Of a stretch of DNA of 33,382 nucleotides, positions 4,590 to 14,892 are shown one piece after another. The DNA lies in NCBI GenBank assembly GCA_030528355.1, contig JAUMZA010000009.1, positions 1 to 33,382 on the forward strand, in the 5' to 3' direction. The notes under the pieces were generated by a model. That model searched no databases and had not been told where the DNA came from. It worked only from the letters and a program-made list of their open reading frames with translations. The stretch is from Candidatus Saccharimonadota bacterium (GTDB taxonomy: Bacteria; Patescibacteriota; Saccharimonadia; Saccharimonadales; Saccharimonadaceae). The translations under genes and the position numbers were made by a program. Each line of letters begins with the position of its first letter. Positions within the stretch are counted from its first letter, which is position 1.

Positions 4590-5051
4590 ATGCCGCAGCT
4601 GTTTCAAAAGGCATTGCAATTAATTATTGGCACCGAACCGCTCACTGCGGATTCGTCTTATTATCCTGTGCCCGAAAAAACAGCTAAACCTAAAAAGCGG
4701 CCGCTTAAAAAACTTACCGAACGAGAACTGATTCAGCTTGAAAGTGAAATTGGTGCAACCGTTTTTGGCCAATTACCAAAAGGATGTCGTCGTGAATTCT
4801 TCAACCTCGATCAATCTACTTGGATTTGGTACGAAGAGTCGGTTGATGGTATGACGCATCAGCGAAAATCAACAACTATTCGCTACGAGGTGCATGAAAA
4901 CGGCATCTTAAAGGTACAAGAAGGTGCTCGTTATAATTTTTTGGAAGGCCAGGAGCTGCAAAACTTCTTAATGGCTGTGCAACTGTATTACGAACAGGTT
5001 TGTCGTGATATCTACCGTGTGCACGCACCGTCTGTTGGTGTTCAGGCGTAA
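4590..5051 (+). CDS. Conserved-looking hypothetical protein
   Basis: Unrecognised soluble protein of 153 aa. Residues 1-45 include a Lys/Pro-rich linker (EKTAKPKKRPLKK). The remainder looks like a compact alpha/beta domain with GATVFGQLPKGCRREFFNL, STWIWYEE, RYEVHENGILKVQEG and a final aromatic helix (FLMAVQLYYEQVCRDIY). No signal peptide or membrane segment is visible. It starts at the base after the preceding stop. The dense pattern of aromatic and charged residues suggests a real folded protein, probably lineage-specific, but I assign no function. Confidence 0.7.
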   Translation: MPQLFQKALQLIIGTEPLTADSSYYPVPEKTAKPKKRPLKKLTERELIQLESEIGATVFGQLPKGCRREFFNLDQSTWIWYEESVDGMTHQRKSTTIRYEVHENGILKVQEGARYNFLEGQELQNFLMAVQLYYEQVCRDIYRVHAPSVGVQA

Positions 5052-6229: not shown

Positions 6230-6837
6230 TTCGTACACTAACGGCAATAGTACTCTTGGTGATAACAATCGGCTTGATTGGAGTGTATCTAGCACCAGAT
6301 GATTTGCAGCGGTGCGGCACTACGCCCGATGCAACGGCTGAGCTTGGGGTGTGTCGAAAGGCTGATGCGATTGTGGCGGTGAGCGGTGGCGATACTGATG
6401 CTCGCACGCAAGAAGCGATTGAGCTGTATCATCGTGGTTGGGCAAGCACAGTGGTGTTTTCGGGTGCGGCCGCCGATACATCTGGCCCGAGCAATGCCGA
6501 AGCTATGCGTCGCTATGCAATTGCTCGTGGTGTGCCAGAGTCTGCTATTTTGGTGGAGGGATCATCAAAAACTACCCGTGAGAATGCCCAGTTATCCCGT
6601 GAGCTGTTTGTAAAAAATAAACTTACACGAGTGATTTTGGTCACCTCGGCCTACCATCAACGACGGGCTAGCATAGAGTTTCGGGCGGTAGCGGGCGATG
6701 CGGTAACGGTCATTAATCACCCGGTTGCAAAAGATCGTCAATGGTCGTATTGGTGGTGGGCAACACCAAGTGGCTGGTGGCTCGCAATGAGCGAAATCGG
6801 CAAAATTTTACTGGTGTATATAGGAGCGTCCCGATGA
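6226..6837 (+). CDS. YdcF/SanA-like DUF218 membrane protein
   Basis: 203-aa protein with one N-terminal transmembrane segment (about residues 5-23) and an outward-facing DUF218 domain. Typical motifs are ADAIVAVSGGD (46-56), SSKTTRENAQ and VTSAYHQRRA. The C-terminus is tryptophan-rich (SYWWW, GWWLA). Family members (SanA, ElyC, YdcF) are linked to envelope integrity and polyprenyl-carrier metabolism, but the reaction is uncertain. ATGA overlaps join it to the gene before (6226-6229) and after (6834-6837), so it is translationally coupled between a desulfurase and mnmA although no shared pathway is obvious. Confidence 0.85.
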   Translation: MIRTLTAIVLLVITIGLIGVYLAPDDLQRCGTTPDATAELGVCRKADAIVAVSGGDTDARTQEAIELYHRGWASTVVFSGAAADTSGPSNAEAMRRYAIARGVPESAILVEGSSKTTRENAQLSRELFVKNKLTRVILVTSAYHQRRASIEFRAVAGDAVTVINHPVAKDRQWSYWWWATPSGWWLAMSEIGKILLVYIGASR

Positions 6838-7859
6838 CACGGGTATTTGTTGGCATGAGTGGCGGGGTTGATAGTAGCCTGACAGCTGCATTATTGTGTG
6901 AGCAGGGTTACCAGGTAACTGGTGTGTATATGAAAAATTGGAGCCAAGACTTACCTGGCATGAAGTGTCCGTGGGCAGAAGATCTTGCGGATGCTAAGCG
7001 AGTTGCGGTGCAGCTGGGCATTGATTTGAAAGTGTATGATTTTGAAACATCGTACCGTGAAAAAGTCGTGCAGTATATGATTGATGCCTACCAGCAGGGT
7101 TATACGCCAAACCCTGATATTATGTGCAACCAAGAGGTGAAGTTCAAGTTATTTTTAGATGCGGCCTTGGCTGATGGTGCCGATATGATTGCCACCGGAC
7201 ACTACGCTGCCACTAAAGACGGTCAGCTATTGCGTGCCAAGGATGATAATAAAGATCAAACTTACTTTTTGTACCGAGTAACTGAGCATGCACTGCGGCA
7301 TACTTTGCTGCCACTTGGCAACTATACCAAGCCTGAGGTTCGTGCAATGGCAAGCGAGCGGGGTTTGTATACCGCAGGCAAAAAAGATAGCCAGGGGATT
7401 TGTTTTGTTGGCAAGGTGGGGATTCGTGAATTTTTAGGGCAGTACATTACTACGCAGCCAGGGAATATTATCGATATTCGTACAAAAAAAGTATTAGGAC
7501 AGCATGATGGAGCGATTTTTTATACACTTGGACAGCGTCACGGGTTGCAGTTGGGTGGCGGCCTGCCGTACTATGTTGTAGGTAAAAGTATGGAGCGTAA
7601 CGAAGTGTACGTATCAACCGATCTTAATAACGAAGCAATGTGGCGTAAAACGATTGCAATTGGGGCCGTTCACTGGATTAACCATCCGCCAGCTGATGGC
7701 ACCTACTTTGCACGTATCCGGCATCGGGCACCGCTTACCGAGGTGCTATTACAGGGCGATACACTCACCTTCATCGAACCGCAGCGGGCAGCTGCAGCAG
7801 GGCAATCAGTAGTGTTGTATGAGGATCTTCGCTGTATTGGCGGGGGTGTTATTATATAG
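6834..7859 (+). CDS. mnmA: tRNA-specific 2-thiouridylase MnmA
   Basis: Installs sulfur on U34 of tRNAs for Lys, Glu and Gln. 341 aa. The ATP-pyrophosphatase P-loop is SGGVDSS (9-15); the two catalytic cysteines are Cys98 in PDIMCNQEVKF and Cys190 in SQGICFVG; the DQTYFLY motif and C-terminal beta-barrels are present. ATG 6834 is chosen because TAGGAG at 6821-6826 sits 7 nt upstream and the start overlaps the ydcF stop; an upstream extension of the frame to 6741 would run deep into ydcF. Sulfur probably comes from the desulfurase two genes upstream, possibly directly, since no TusA-E relay gene is seen here. Confidence 0.97.
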   Translation: MTRVFVGMSGGVDSSLTAALLCEQGYQVTGVYMKNWSQDLPGMKCPWAEDLADAKRVAVQLGIDLKVYDFETSYREKVVQYMIDAYQQGYTPNPDIMCNQEVKFKLFLDAALADGADMIATGHYAATKDGQLLRAKDDNKDQTYFLYRVTEHALRHTLLPLGNYTKPEVRAMASERGLYTAGKKDSQGICFVGKVGIREFLGQYITTQPGNIIDIRTKKVLGQHDGAIFYTLGQRHGLQLGGGLPYYVVGKSMERNEVYVSTDLNNEAMWRKTIAIGAVHWINHPPADGTYFARIRHRAPLTEVLLQGDTLTFIEPQRAAAAGQSVVLYEDLRCIGGGVII

Positions 7860-7941: not shown

Positions 7942-10005
7942 ATGAAGCAACTGGCGACACGTGTATTTATCCCCAGCTTTGCAGGCTACAAGCGAAGCTA
8001 TCTTAAGAAAGATTTTATTGCTGCATTGGTGGTAACGGCCATTGCTATACCAGAAAGTCTTGGGTTTGCAGCTATCGTTGGCTTGCCAATTCAAACCGGG
8101 TTGTATTGTGCCTTGCTCGCACCGATTGTGTTTGCGGTGCTTACGTCATCGCGCCATTTGGTGATTGGGGCTGACTCGGCGACTGCCGCATTGGTAGCTA
8201 GTGGTGCGGCAACTATCGCAGCGGCTGGTTCGGCAGAATACCCGGCAGCAATTGCACTACTTGGGGTGCTAACCGGTGCAATGCTGATTGCTATGAGCGT
8301 CTTGCGGCTTGGTTTTTTGGCAGATCTTATTTCAAAGCCAGTGCTGGTTGGTTTTTTAGCAGGGGTTGGTGCGCAGTTGATTATTGGCAAGCTACCAGAG
8401 ATGATTGGCATTGAAGCTCATGGCGGATTGCTCGCAAAACTTGCGACACTTGCTACGCAACTCGGCACGATTCACTGGCCAACTGTAGCGCTGGCGTGTG
8501 GTATTTTTGCTATCGTTATTTTGGCGGGCAGGCGAAAATTGCCAGGGGCATTAATTGGTTTGGTGGTGGCGATTATTATTACTAAACTAGGTAATCTCGA
8601 GCAGTATGGCATTGCAACAGTTGGTGAATTACCAGCAGGGTTGCCGCAGCTCATCATGCCAGACCTCTCAATTCCTCACATGATTACATTGTCGCTTTCG
8701 GCAGCCGCCATTGCAGTGGTGATTTTAGCACAAAGCTTGGCGACAATTCGGAGTTTTGCTGATAAATACGACGAGCCGGTGCGCGACAATAAAGATTTAA
8801 TGGCCTTGGGTTTTGCGAATATTATATCTGCACTTACACAGGGGTTTGCCGTGAATGGTAGCCCGCCACGCACTTCCGCTGGTGAAATCGCTGGCGGCCG
8901 GTCGCAGATGATTAATATTTTTATGGCGTTGCTGATTGGACTGCTATTATTGTTTGCGACTGATATCTTAAAGCTGGTGCCACACGCTGCCTTGGCAGCT
9001 ATTGTGTGTTCGATTGGGTTGCATTTGGTAAAAATTAATCAACTAAAAGATATTTGGAATACGCATAAAATTGAATTTGCGATTGCCATGGTCGCCTTGG
9101 TGGCGGTGGCAGTATTTGGAGTACAAAAGGGTATCATATTAGCGGTGTTATGTGCCTTGATTGAGCGACTTCGCCGTGAATATCGCCCGCATGACGGCGT
9201 TTTGCTGCGTGATCAAGAAATCTCGGACTGGGCGGCCGATCGTATTCGGGGCAGCCATCGCCACATTACGCAGCCGGAGGGTGTGTTGGTGTATCGATTT
9301 GATGCCGATTTGTTCTTTGAAAACGCTAGTTACTTCAGTCGTCGCATTAAGCAGGCGATTGATGGGGCGAAGCAGCCGGTGCGAGTAGTGATTGTTGATG
9401 TTGGCGCGATGGGTGATATCGACTATACTGGGGCGGCCGCATTACGTAAGGTGGTTGAGCAGTTGGCGGTTGACGAAGTACGATTCGGACTTGCACATGT
9501 GGCACCAGGTTTGCGTAAAATGTTGGATATCTACGGCGTGTCTGGCTTGATTGGCGATGAGAATATGTACCCAAGTTTGCGCGAGGCAGTGCGGTCACAG
9601 CCGGGCGTGCGTCGTTCTACTATCGATATGGTGCGTCGCTTAAACCTGCCGGCTCGTAGCTATGTTGTCATTGGTGGTGGTGTGCTAGAGGCGCTCGGTT
9701 TGCGTGATACGATGGATGTTGATTTGGTGGTTGATAAAGCCACCTACAAACGGTTCCACGAGCAAGGCTGGAAGGAGTATGTACATGATGATGGTAAGCG
9801 AATTTTATCACATCGAGGCTACAAGTTAATGACTTCATATATGGGGCGAGATGTGCATCGTCTCCTCAAGCATTCGTTCGTCAAGGATAGCGTACGCTTT
9901 ATCGGGTTGGATGATCTTGTAAAAAGTAAAGAGCAGTTTGCTCGCACAAAAGATATCGAAGACATTAAGCTGATTCGTCGCTACCAGTCTCAGCAAAAAA
10001 AGTAA
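7942..10005 (+). CDS. SulP anion transporter with STAS and extra nucleotidyltransferase-like domain
   Basis: 687-aa membrane protein. Residues 1-410 form the SulP/SLC26 core, with the family signature around AIPESLGFAAIVGLP and about ten to twelve hydrophobic segments; relatives carry sulfate, bicarbonate or other anions. Residues about 440-555 are a STAS domain with the IDYTGAAAL loop. Residues about 572-687 are extra: IGGGVLEALGLRDTMDVDL resembles the GG/GS...DxD core of nucleotidyltransferase folds of the MNT/AbiEii type, and DDLVKSKEQFARTKDIEDI resembles their C-terminal helix motif. The usual GS serine is replaced by Gly, so activity is uncertain; it may only bind a nucleotide and gate the transporter. 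Reading frame and composition are continuous, so I see no sign of a recent join. The substrate is not readable from the sequence. Confidence 0.9.
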   Translation: MKQLATRVFIPSFAGYKRSYLKKDFIAALVVTAIAIPESLGFAAIVGLPIQTGLYCALLAPIVFAVLTSSRHLVIGADSATAALVASGAATIAAAGSAEYPAAIALLGVLTGAMLIAMSVLRLGFLADLISKPVLVGFLAGVGAQLIIGKLPEMIGIEAHGGLLAKLATLATQLGTIHWPTVALACGIFAIVILAGRRKLPGALIGLVVAIIITKLGNLEQYGIATVGELPAGLPQLIMPDLSIPHMITLSLSAAAIAVVILAQSLATIRSFADKYDEPVRDNKDLMALGFANIISALTQGFAVNGSPPRTSAGEIAGGRSQMINIFMALLIGLLLLFATDILKLVPHAALAAIVCSIGLHLVKINQLKDIWNTHKIEFAIAMVALVAVAVFGVQKGIILAVLCALIERLRREYRPHDGVLLRDQEISDWAADRIRGSHRHITQPEGVLVYRFDADLFFENASYFSRRIKQAIDGAKQPVRVVIVDVGAMGDIDYTGAAALRKVVEQLAVDEVRFGLAHVAPGLRKMLDIYGVSGLIGDENMYPSLREAVRSQPGVRRSTIDMVRRLNLPARSYVVIGGGVLEALGLRDTMDVDLVVDKATYKRFHEQGWKEYVHDDGKRILSHRGYKLMTSYMGRDVHRLLKHSFVKDSVRFIGLDDLVKSKEQFARTKDIEDIKLIRRYQSQQKK

Positions 10006-10027: not shown

Positions 10028-11905
10028 ATGAACACCCAAGACATCCGTAACGCATATCTACAGTTTTTTAAAGATCGCCAGCACGAAATTATTGAGCGCG
10101 CCCCGCTCGTGCTCCACAACGACCCAACCACGCTGTTTACCGGCAGCGGCATGCAGCCGTTATTGCCATACCTGCTTGGTCAGGATCATCCGGCTGGCAC
10201 CAAGTTGGTGGATAGTCAGACCTGTTTGCGTGCCCAAGATATCGAGGATGTGGGTGATAATCGCCACACGACCTTTTTTGAAATGCTGGGCAACTGGAGC
10301 ATGGGTGAATACTTTAAGCGCCAGCAAATTGAATGGTTCTTTGAGTTTTTGACGGATGTGGTTGGGCTTGATCCGCATAAAATTTATGTGAGCTGCTTTA
10401 TTGGTGATGAAACGCACAGCATCCCACGTGATGATGAAGCTGCCCAGATTTGGCAAGATGTGTTCGCAAAAAAAGGTATTGATGCCAAGATTGTAGAGCT
10501 TAATACGGCTGAAAATGGCGATAAGCTTGGTATGCAGGGCGGTCGGATCTTCTTTTATAACGACAAAGAAAACTGGTGGAGCCGTGGCGGCGGCATTGAA
10601 AGCACGCCGATTGGTGACCCATGTGGCCCAGATAGCGAAGTCTTTTATGATTTTGGTGAGCAGCATCATGATCCATCATTTGGCGAAGCACACCCAGCCA
10701 GCGATAGCGGCCGCTTTATGGAGATTGGCAACCAGGTGTTTATGCAATATCGTCGCCTTGAAGATGGTAGTTTTGAACCACTCGCCCGCAAGAACGTTGA
10801 CTTTGGCGGTGGCTTAGAGCGTATTGCGGCTGCTAAGCTTGATAGTCCCGATGTCTTTAAGATTAGCTTGCTGGCGCCAATTATCGAAAAGCTCGAGACT
10901 TTGAGTGGCAAAAACTACGAAAGTAACACCGCAAGTATGCGTGTGATTGCCGACCACCTGCGTGCGGCGACCTTTTTGGCGGTTGATGGCTGCGTGCCGG
11001 CCAATAAAGAACAGGGCTATGTCATGCGCCGCTTACTGCGCCGAGCAATTCGTTTTGCGCTTGATCTTGGCATTGAGCAAAACTTCTTTAACGAAATTGT
11101 GCCAGTAATTGCCGATATGTACGCCAGCGACTACCCAGAAGTTGCCGCCAAGCGCGATGAAGTGATTGCGGTGCTCGCTAAAGAAGAAAAAGTCTTCCGT
11201 CAAACCTTGCGAAAGGGCTTAAAGCAACTTGAAAAATTTGCTCAGGATGGCCTGACTGGCGCTGAGCTCTTTATGCTGTACGACACCTACGGCTTCCCGG
11301 TTGAGCTTTCAACCGAAGAGGTCTTTAAGCAAGATATTGCCCTTTCAAAAAACTGGCGCAAAGAGTTTAACGAACACATGGCCGAGCAGCGTCGCCGTTC
11401 GCAAACTGCCGCCAAGGGTACGTTTAAGGGCGGTTTGGGCGGCTCGAGCCCGATTCATCTAAAGTACCACACGGCGACACACCTGATGTACGCAGCGCTG
11501 CGCCAGGTGGTGGGCGAACATGTGACGCAGCATGGCAGTAATATCACCGAAGAGCGTCTGCGATTTGATTTCAATAACGATGGCAAGGTTCCTCGTGAAC
11601 AGCTTGACGAAATTGAAGCCTTGGTAAATGGCTGGATTGAGGCCGATTTGCCAGTCAGCTTCACCGAATATCCAACCGAACAAGCCTTTGCGATGGGCGC
11701 GATTGGGGCGTTTGGCGATAAATATGGCGATACGGTCAAGGTTTACCAAGTTGGCGCCGATGATAACCGAGTGAGCTTTGAAATTTGTGGTGGTCCGCAT
11801 GTTGAGCATACCGGCCAATTGGGCGAGGATGGTAAGCGTTTTAAGATTAAAAAAGAAGAGTCTTCAAGCGCAGGTATTCGTCGCATAAAAGCCGTTTTGC
11901 AGTAG
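10028..11905 (+). CDS. alaS: Alanyl-tRNA synthetase lacking the C-Ala domain
   Basis: Class II synthetase charging tRNA-Ala, 625 aa against about 875 in E. coli. The catalytic core (about 1-250) has FTGSGMQPLLPYL, DSQTCLRAQDIEDVG and the GGGIESTPIGDPCGP region; a tRNA-recognition domain follows. The editing domain carries its metal/active-site set: His481 and His485 in HTATH, Cys587 and His591 in CGGPH. The protein ends at ESSSAGIRRIKAVLQ, directly after editing, so the coiled-coil and C-Ala (DHHA1) part is absent. The stop is followed by non-coding sequence and a promoter, so this is a natural short form and not a frameshift. Confidence 0.96.
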   Translation: MNTQDIRNAYLQFFKDRQHEIIERAPLVLHNDPTTLFTGSGMQPLLPYLLGQDHPAGTKLVDSQTCLRAQDIEDVGDNRHTTFFEMLGNWSMGEYFKRQQIEWFFEFLTDVVGLDPHKIYVSCFIGDETHSIPRDDEAAQIWQDVFAKKGIDAKIVELNTAENGDKLGMQGGRIFFYNDKENWWSRGGGIESTPIGDPCGPDSEVFYDFGEQHHDPSFGEAHPASDSGRFMEIGNQVFMQYRRLEDGSFEPLARKNVDFGGGLERIAAAKLDSPDVFKISLLAPIIEKLETLSGKNYESNTASMRVIADHLRAATFLAVDGCVPANKEQGYVMRRLLRRAIRFALDLGIEQNFFNEIVPVIADMYASDYPEVAAKRDEVIAVLAKEEKVFRQTLRKGLKQLEKFAQDGLTGAELFMLYDTYGFPVELSTEEVFKQDIALSKNWRKEFNEHMAEQRRRSQTAAKGTFKGGLGGSSPIHLKYHTATHLMYAALRQVVGEHVTQHGSNITEERLRFDFNNDGKVPREQLDEIEALVNGWIEADLPVSFTEYPTEQAFAMGAIGAFGDKYGDTVKVYQVGADDNRVSFEICGGPHVEHTGQLGEDGKRFKIKKEESSSAGIRRIKAVLQ

Positions 11906-13251: not shown

Positions 13252-14892
13252 ATGAACAAAGAAGTACTCTATATCGATGTTGATGACGACATAACTGCCA
13301 TTATCAGCAAGGTAAAGGCGGCCGAAGCAAAAGTAGTTGCGTTGGTGCCACCAAAACGAATTGGTGTATTGCAAAGTGCAGTGAATTTGCGTATTTTGCA
13401 GCGAGTTGCAAAGGTTGCCAAAAAGCATGTGGTGCTGATTACAAACGATACTGCACTCATGATGCTTGCGGCTGGAGCAAATATTCCAGTAGCAAAAAAT
13501 CTACAATCCAAGCCAGAGGTACTTGAAGTGCCAGCCCTGCGAGTCGATGGCGAAGATGACATCATTGACGGTGCTAGTCTTTCGGTGGGTGAACATATTG
13601 ATGCCGATACCAAGCAGCAGCGAGCCAGTGAGGCGGCAGCTGTGGCAGCAATTAGTGCTGACGAGGCCAAGAAGGATGCGTCGGCTGCAGCTGAGGCAAA
13701 GAAGTCTGCCAAAAAAACACCAAAGGTGCCAAATTTTAATCATTTTCGCAAAAAATTGTTTATTGCAGGTGGTGTGCTGATTGCATTGGTGGCGTTTTTG
13801 ATATGGGCGACCAAATATGCACCACGAGCAACTGTGGTGGTGTCGGCAAAAACGAGCACAGAGTCGGTTTCTACGTCAGTTGGTTTGCTGCAATCGGGTG
13901 CAACTAGTGCCGAGAAGGGCGTGATTCGTTCAGTTGTTGCAACCGATAAAAAAGACACCACTATTGAATTTGCAGCCACTGGCAAGCGAGAGGAGGGCGA
14001 GAAAGCTTCGGGTACGATGACAATCAGTAGCACTACGCCGGTGTCGGTAAAAATTCCGATTGGTACCGGCTTTAGTAATGGCAACTGTACGTTTACAACC
14101 ACTAGTGCAGCTGAAGTACCAGGCGTATCACCCGGCTGGAACGGGAGTGGCTTTAGTGTGGTGCCTGGTAAGGTGAATGTTGCAGTCAGGGCAACGCAAA
14201 TTGGTGATGAATGTAACCTCAGTCCACGCAGTTATGAGCCAACAATTGAAAAGGTGGCTGCAACTGGTTCTGCGATGCAGGGTGGCTCGAAGCGACAAGT
14301 CACTTTTGTGACACAAGCCGACGTACAAAAAGCCTCTGAGCAGATTGCACAGGCCAGTGCCGATGAACGCAAGGCTGCACTACAGAAAAAATTAGGCAAG
14401 GGCGTACAGGCAATCGATAGTAGTTTTGCCGCCTCGGAAGGCACAACCACTTCAACCCCAGAGGTTAATAAAGAGGCTCCCGATGGCAAGGCGAAGCTCG
14501 TAGCGTCGGTAACCTACTCGATGACCGGTATTGCCCATAACGAACTCCATACCTTCCTTGAGCAAGCTCTGCTACAAAAACTATCAAAAGAGACGAGCCG
14601 CCGTGTGTACGAAACTGGTGCAAAAGATGCAGCAATTAGTGAGTTTAAGCAAGAAGGTGGTAATGTCACTGCCCGTATTACCGCCAAAGGACAGGTTGGG
14701 CCAAAGGTGTCGGATGATGATATCAAGCGACGCACCAAGGGTAAGCGGTTTGGCGACATCCAGTCTGACCTTAAGTCTATTCAGGGTGTGAATGGAGTTG
14801 ATATTAAGTTCTCGCCATTTTGGGTAAACACTGTGCCAAACGATGAGTCTCGCATTACCGTACAGTTTAATCTACAAAAGAATGGGCAATAG
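13252..14892 (+). CDS. Single-pass membrane protein with baseplate-J-like domain
   Basis: 546 aa. An N-terminal cytoplasmic alpha/beta region (about 1-85) has VVALVPPKR and VVLITNDTALMMLA; an Ala/Lys-rich linker (about 110-160) follows, then one transmembrane segment (about 169-188) and a long outside part. In that part, EKASGTMTISS, VKIPIGTGF, CTFTT and the GKVNVAVRATQIG stretch match the general pattern of baseplate-J/gp47-like beta domains, which I recall from membrane proteins of Patescibacteria. No phage genes are near, so it is not a tailocin piece. Placed 1 nt after the FtsA-like gene, it is a candidate link between that ATPase and the cell surface. Function is unknown; the domain match is by eye. 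Confidence 0.75.
   Translation: MNKEVLYIDVDDDITAIISKVKAAEAKVVALVPPKRIGVLQSAVNLRILQRVAKVAKKHVVLITNDTALMMLAAGANIPVAKNLQSKPEVLEVPALRVDGEDDIIDGASLSVGEHIDADTKQQRASEAAAVAAISADEAKKDASAAAEAKKSAKKTPKVPNFNHFRKKLFIAGGVLIALVAFLIWATKYAPRATVVVSAKTSTESVSTSVGLLQSGATSAEKGVIRSVVATDKKDTTIEFAATGKREEGEKASGTMTISSTTPVSVKIPIGTGFSNGNCTFTTTSAAEVPGVSPGWNGSGFSVVPGKVNVAVRATQIGDECNLSPRSYEPTIEKVAATGSAMQGGSKRQVTFVTQADVQKASEQIAQASADERKAALQKKLGKGVQAIDSSFAASEGTTTSTPEVNKEAPDGKAKLVASVTYSMTGIAHNELHTFLEQALLQKLSKETSRRVYETGAKDAAISEFKQEGGNVTARITAKGQVGPKVSDDDIKRRTKGKRFGDIQSDLKSIQGVNGVDIKFSPFWVNTVPNDESRITVQFNLQKNGQ

Follow-up and report, generated by a model that had tools for sequence, protein, structure and literature searches.

Can a transporter of the SulP/SLC26 family carry a nucleotidyltransferase (NTase) domain behind its STAS domain, and what would such a domain do there? 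The question is raised by a gene in a stretch of 33,382 nucleotides (contig JAUMZA010000009.1, here called the window), which belongs to a genome of 0.84 Mb in 21 contigs whose relatives are Saccharibacteria. The gene and its domains are laid out as follows:

7942..10005, + strand: SulP-STAS-NTase fusion gene, one continuous ATG frame of 687 aa
8002..9096, + strand: SulP/SLC26 transmembrane core, residues 21-385 (Pfam Sulfate_transp, E 6.6e-80; match of the model to BicA)
9265..9588, + strand: STAS domain, residues 442-549 (Pfam STAS, E 5.5e-16)
9607..10002, + strand: predicted C-terminal NTase-fold domain of ~132 aa, residues 556-687 (AlphaFold2 and VIA-align)

The two Pfam features of SulP/SLC26 membership, a Sulfate_transp domain and a C-terminal STAS domain, are both present. 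In an AlphaFold2 model of the whole 687-aa protein (pLDDT 90.6, pTM 0.77) the first 558 residues match SLC26/SulP structures, and the transporter model superposes on the transmembrane domain of BicA (Z 50, rmsd 2.2, 379 residues). By profile and model, the transmembrane core and STAS domain resemble those of BicA, DauA, SLC26Dg and the eukaryotic SLC26 proteins; the window protein differs in the NTase-fold domain after STAS, a region where Pfam finds nothing above cut-off. No anion can be assigned to the protein, because its scores against the NCBIfam BicA and DauA models fall far under the cut-off. A preliminary description, made from the sequence, had proposed an NTase-like module from about residue 572 in a continuous frame of unchanged codon use. 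The two segments it quoted are indeed in the frame, VVIGGGVLEALGLRDTMDVDLVV at about residues 574-597 and DDLVKSKEQFARTKDIED at about residues 657-674; the frame is a single one, and GC3 is 0.470 in the tail and 0.474 in the core. Only the boundary moves: the module begins near residue 556 (base 9607).

We modelled the tail from an alignment of the tails of 17 fused homologues (A7), which gave a mean pLDDT of 90.9 and a pTM of 0.82 in AlphaFold2. Comparison with solved structures by VIA-align returned nucleotidyltransferases throughout the top matches: TM1012 (2ewr) ranks first with Z 12.1, rmsd 2.7 and 125 residues aligned, followed by MenT1 (Z 10.8), MenT3/TglT (Z 9.7), ANT(2'')-Ia (Z 9.1) and LnuA (Z 8.6). 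The sole Foldseek match below 1e-3 is again TM1012 (4hx0, E 5e-4). The proposed module after STAS therefore finds its best matches among solved NTases at Z 8-12, and the model and structure search rule out a fold unrelated to nucleotidyltransferases. At the level of prediction, the identity of the tail as a real NTase-fold domain is settled.

Searches with profiles of NTase families, which the preliminary description had suggested, give a mixed picture, weak for the window protein and consistent over its relatives. The window protein matches DUF2204 (E 0.002, 18.3 bits against a gathering cut-off of 20.3) and DUF6036 (E 0.013, 15.7 against 23.6 bits) with scores under the Pfam gathering cut-offs, so it is not assigned to either family. 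Among 34 relatives, DUF6036 is matched in 12 (best 2.5e-5), DUF2204 in 8, NTP_transf_5 in 5, NTP_transf_2 in 2 and PolyA_pol in 1. Pfam AbiEii is absent from the families matched by these 34 relatives, and neither the window protein nor the tail matches it up to E 10. Sequence search of the PDB with the tail or the 34-row profile gave no meaningful match, structure comparison alone being informative here. PADLOC returned no match, and PHROGs returned phrog_12854 (E 1e-8), a family of unknown function; despite this match, no related copy of the tail occurs in the plasmid, phage and viral contig collections, so a phage origin is not traceable.

To place the fusion among other transporters, we surveyed genomes at several taxonomic depths. 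Of 393 genomes sampled from the order, 15 encode a close SulP (E below 1e-140), with the tail in the same frame in 14 of them. A family sample of 394 genomes contributed additional fusions, and a phylum sample of 380 genomes yielded no fusion to a SulP-length frame besides the window's own. A single-protein query found no match in genome contigs, whereas a query built from the 14-row alignment of fused proteins (A1) did: in 84,980 species genomes, 16 of its matches cover the full length (several lie on contigs found before), after which there is a sharp break. For the other 64 among the 80 nearest SulPs, many being Actinomycetota proteins, the match stops at about residue 552-566 and the protein continues for 4-46 aa, which bears out in 64 of 64 non-fused cases the expectation that usual SulPs end after STAS. 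Altogether we count 20 distinct fusions with the same domain at the same position, a conservation far beyond chance. The survey of Saccharibacterial SulPs called for at the outset thus speaks against a one-off join. That an assembly or binning artefact has united two genes is of negligible probability: most members are metagenome bins, but the same junction recurs in 20 distinct fusions. These come from many projects and include the single-cell genome TM7 HOT 348 SAG (TM7 oral taxon 348; L052), which rules out an assembly join, and some lie on single-contig assemblies of ~1 Mb (e.g. G151 and G159). One fused copy (L055) lies on a contig binned as Levyibacteriota and is sister to a Saccharibacterial copy, a placement that reflects either horizontal transfer or mis-binning.

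In the tree of SulP cores, 19 fused proteins and the tail-less protein of genome G386 form one clade (SH-aLRT 99; 100/100 in the careful tree), and the 19 fused tails form one clade in the tree of tails (99). L055 and L060 pair together in both trees. Because the fused proteins form one clade in both, the most likely history is a single fusion event followed by vertical inheritance with the transporter. G386 (L044:1495-3138) is the sole close SulP without a tail and stops right after STAS. It is nested within the fused clade, and its lack of a tail is therefore a secondary loss; tail presence on the core tree requires two changes, which we interpret as a single gain and a single later loss. 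Tail and core are under purifying selection of about equal strength: over eight pairs, pN is 0.15-0.31 in the tail and 0.14-0.29 in the core, in a comparison of raw pN/pS, with tail pS (0.72-0.94) near saturation and dS saturated. The sister clade of the fused-clade core consists of Actinomycetota SulPs of the Terrabacter/Humibacillus type (L066-L073). These are the nearest core relatives outside the fused clade, about 50% identical in the closest; by contrast with the fused proteins they stop after STAS, 8-30 aa past the match. Actinomycetota host many Saccharibacteria, and the topology suggests that the Saccharibacterial transporter core may have been acquired from hosts.

Relatives of the tail domain are also found outside transporters. 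Stand-alone copies, mostly with the full catalytic set, are spread across Patescibacteria; about 40 of the 380 genomes in the phylum sample carry shorter copies, with few exceptions in frames of 75-310 aa. The small Patescibacterial NTases, stand-alone or N-terminally fused (L014-L030, L130-L147, L152-L192), represent the same domain by sequence (identity 29-39%, profile E values reaching about 1e-29) and have motifs I-IV. They differ from the tail in usually retaining GS, DxD and an Asp or Glu in motif 2a and in having no transporter attached. In four Saccharibacterial cases (L014:685-1881, L016:1036-1890, L023:841-1944 and L025:387-1358) the NTase domain is fused N-terminally to other enzymes, the partners being a methyltransferase, a NUDIX protein, an HD protein and a YbaK-like aminoacyl-tRNA editing domain; the active-site motifs of these copies are mostly intact. 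The domain thus behaves like a reusable module. A divergent copy is embedded in very long frames in L139 (1478 aa, a non-SulP protein), L149 (1107 aa) and L148 (520 aa). Five stand-alone copies (L028, L029, L153, L157 and L160) contain an in-frame stop inside the matched region, possibly because the genes are decaying or because the matches overrun the gene end.

AbiEii/DUF1814 proteins are characterized by motif I (hG[GS]), motif II (DhD preceded by Arg), motif III (Lys) and motif IV (+DxxD) (PMC3985639). We located the corresponding positions in the window protein and counted their residues in the 20 distinct fused copies and in 51 other copies of the domain:

9664..9681, + strand: motif I (hG[GS]), residues 575-580; G578 in 19/20 and G579 in 20/20 fused copies
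9703..9729, + strand: motif II (R..DhDh), residues 588-596, RDTMDVDLV; R588 and D594 in 20/20, D592 in 15/20 fused copies
9796..9798, + strand: Lys619, in 20/20 fused versus 4/51 other copies
9817..9834, + strand: strand of motif 2a, residues 626-631 (GYKLMT region), with K628 in place of the catalytic acid
9907..9945, + strand: motif III region, residues 656-668; K663 and R668 in 20/20 fused copies
9949..9963, + strand: motif IV (+DxxD), residues 670-674, KDIED; D671 and D674 in 20/20, Lys670 in 19/20 fused copies

The window copy itself retains the GG of motif I, R588, DxD, K663 and +DxxD. The pattern hG[GS]x9-13DhD of the pol beta-type NTase superfamily is present as GGx12DVD, with a spacing of 12 inside the range of 9-13, as are the motif III Lys (K663) and the motif IV +DxxD (K670-D671-x-x-D674) of AbiEii/MenT proteins (definitions from PMC3985639). 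Six residues, R588, D594, K663, R668, D671 and D674, are each found in 20/20 of the fused set. The third carboxylate of the superfamily, h[DE]h in motif 2a, is missing, with K628 in its place in the window copy: an acidic residue at positions 627-629 occurs in 0/20 fused versus 49/51 other copies. This is the universal loss, and the preliminary description had missed it, reporting instead an absent GS serine and a retained DxD. The serine is absent from motif I as stated, but reading this as a loss does not hold: GG is no lesion because AbiEii also has GG, and its G50A mutant retains toxicity (PMC3985639). Retention of DxD is true of the window copy but not of the fused set, where the first Asp (D592) remains in 15/20 copies, versus 50/51 other copies, and is replaced by A, S, N, T or E in the other five, a loss requiring four changes on the core tree. 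In one fused copy (L053) the first Gly of motif I, an essential residue, is replaced by Cys. The complete set of motifs I, II and 2a is found in 0/20 fused versus 44/51 other copies (Fisher P 4e-12, a descriptive value only, as it ignores relatedness). Along with these losses, Met630 is fusion-specific (20/20 versus 2/51 other copies) and W610 is invariant among fused copies.

Mutant data from relatives indicate what these positions do. In AbiEii, G49A, R63A, D67A, D67E, D69A, K173A, R180A and D192A abolish toxicity, the mutants of motif III included; mutants in motifs I, II and IV bind GTP poorly, and D192A in motif IV cuts GTP binding (PMC3985639). The motif 2a acid of MenT3 is E146, and E146Q is only attenuated, most of the toxicity being kept (PMC7205606). 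We favour reading the combination of a kept fold and nucleotide-side motifs, decayed metal-side acids and new invariant residues as the probable trace of selection for ligand binding or regulation and not for catalysis.

The surroundings of the gene were compared among the fusions, the immediate neighbours being:

6741..7859, + strand: upstream MnmA-like tRNA thiouridylase ORF, named by sequence recognition; its start is probably later than 6741
10028..11905, + strand: downstream alanyl-tRNA synthetase-like ORF, named by sequence recognition

The MnmA-like gene also adjoins the fusion in L050 and L052 and lies one gene further off in L051, and the synthetase-like gene is shared by L050, L051 and L052. 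Neighbouring genes vary between sub-clades, and the comparison found no partner gene conserved beside all fusions. There is likewise no antitoxin gene adjoining the fusion, the neighbours being of tRNA-modification and aminoacyl-tRNA synthetase types. Two further ORFs of the window, 4590-5051 (153 aa; conserved in L050, L051 and L052) and 13252-14892 (546 aa; in L051 and L052), have no Pfam match and keep their order in relatives.

What, then, might the tail do? About evenly balanced, in our judgement, is the prospect that it is a catalytically degenerate NTase domain that would bind a nucleotide and regulate the transporter, as its motif pattern suggests. A nucleotide or nucleotide-like ligand would dock in the old active-site cleft; binding would shift the seating of the STAS/tail assembly beneath the transport domain, and anion flux might be raised or lowered according to the nucleotide state of the cell. 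The fold, the descent and the motif losses are established computationally; ligand binding and its coupling to transport we infer. Nucleotide binding with gating of transport was the first option of the preliminary description, and it fits the kept motifs III and IV. Since K619 and M630 are newly fixed, a specific new job can be argued. A precedent for a gating role may lie in SLC26A9, whose C-terminal helices past STAS reportedly obstruct the ion path at its entrance (PMC11214054). The more specific version, a captured and catalytically dead AbiEii/MenT-type NTase serving as an intracellular nucleotide sensor that would gate anion transport in host-dependent Saccharibacteria, we hold tentatively, as falling somewhat short of probable. 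Against a sensor stand the dependence of AbiEii GTP binding on motifs I, II and IV, such that the loss of D592 in some copies may have weakened nucleotide binding too, and the G386 lineage, which does without the tail.

The principal competitor to nucleotide-dependent regulation, though itself unlikely, is that the tail has lost nucleotide binding and serves in protein binding or structure, as a dimer contact, scaffold or docking site for a partner. The catalytic decay of the fused tails agrees with it, as do the invariant W610, K619 and M630 outside the binding motifs, and some cleft residues could be kept for folding. As no partner gene is conserved beside all fusions, any partner would be either a protein acting in trans or the transporter to which the tail belongs. 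Such a role nevertheless leaves unexplained why motifs III and IV, R588 and D594 have stayed invariant and yet D592 and motif 2a have decayed. It is far less probable still that the tail is a dispensable, functionless leftover of a chance fusion: G386 has dropped the tail and retains the transporter, but this is a single loss on the tree, and 20 diverged fusions have kept the tail under constraint about equal to that of the transporter.

We also consider it improbable that the tail has remained catalytically active, transferring a nucleotide onto STAS or another partner and so switching the transporter; modification of STAS was the second option of the preliminary description, and the less likely one. 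The retained motifs of the window copy (motif I GG, R588, DxD, K663 and +DxxD) would permit such activity, and T496 of the STAS domain, invariant in the 14-row fused alignment, lies near the phosphorylation site of SpoIIAA-type STAS proteins. With DxD intact, the window copy may have weak catalysis, by analogy with MenT3, whose E146Q mutant keeps most of its toxicity (PMC7205606). Across the fused set the evidence runs the other way: the motif 2a acid is missing from 20/20 copies, the first Asp is lost in 5/20 through four changes, including to Ala, Ser, Asn and Thr, where the equivalent AbiEii mutants D67A and D67E are inactive (PMC3985639), and L053 lacks the first, essential Gly of motif I.

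Each component domain is of a known kind. SulP transporters fused to carbonic anhydrase, rhodanese or other domains exist, and they share with the present case the principle of an accessory soluble domain; the accessory domain differs. With the AbiEii/MenT (DUF1814) toxins and TM1012 the tail shares the fold (Z 9.7-12.1) and motifs III and IV (+DxxD) (PMC3985639), and it differs in having no Pfam AbiEii match, no adjacent antitoxin and no motif 2a acid, and in being joined to a transporter. The preliminary description knew of no SulP with such a module, and our literature search, which lay largely outside subscription papers, likewise found none. The SulP-NTase combination, which our searches found in a single clade only (plus the L055 label), appears to be undescribed. 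It would represent an NTase fold that was joined to STAS once and retained through the depth of the clade while its catalytic centre was partly removed. As a matter of speculation, the tail might reflect the dependence of Saccharibacteria on host nucleotides. The fusion offers a testable case of possible nucleotide control over an SLC26-type transporter, and of an AbiEii/MenT-type NTase that may have been turned into a regulatory domain.
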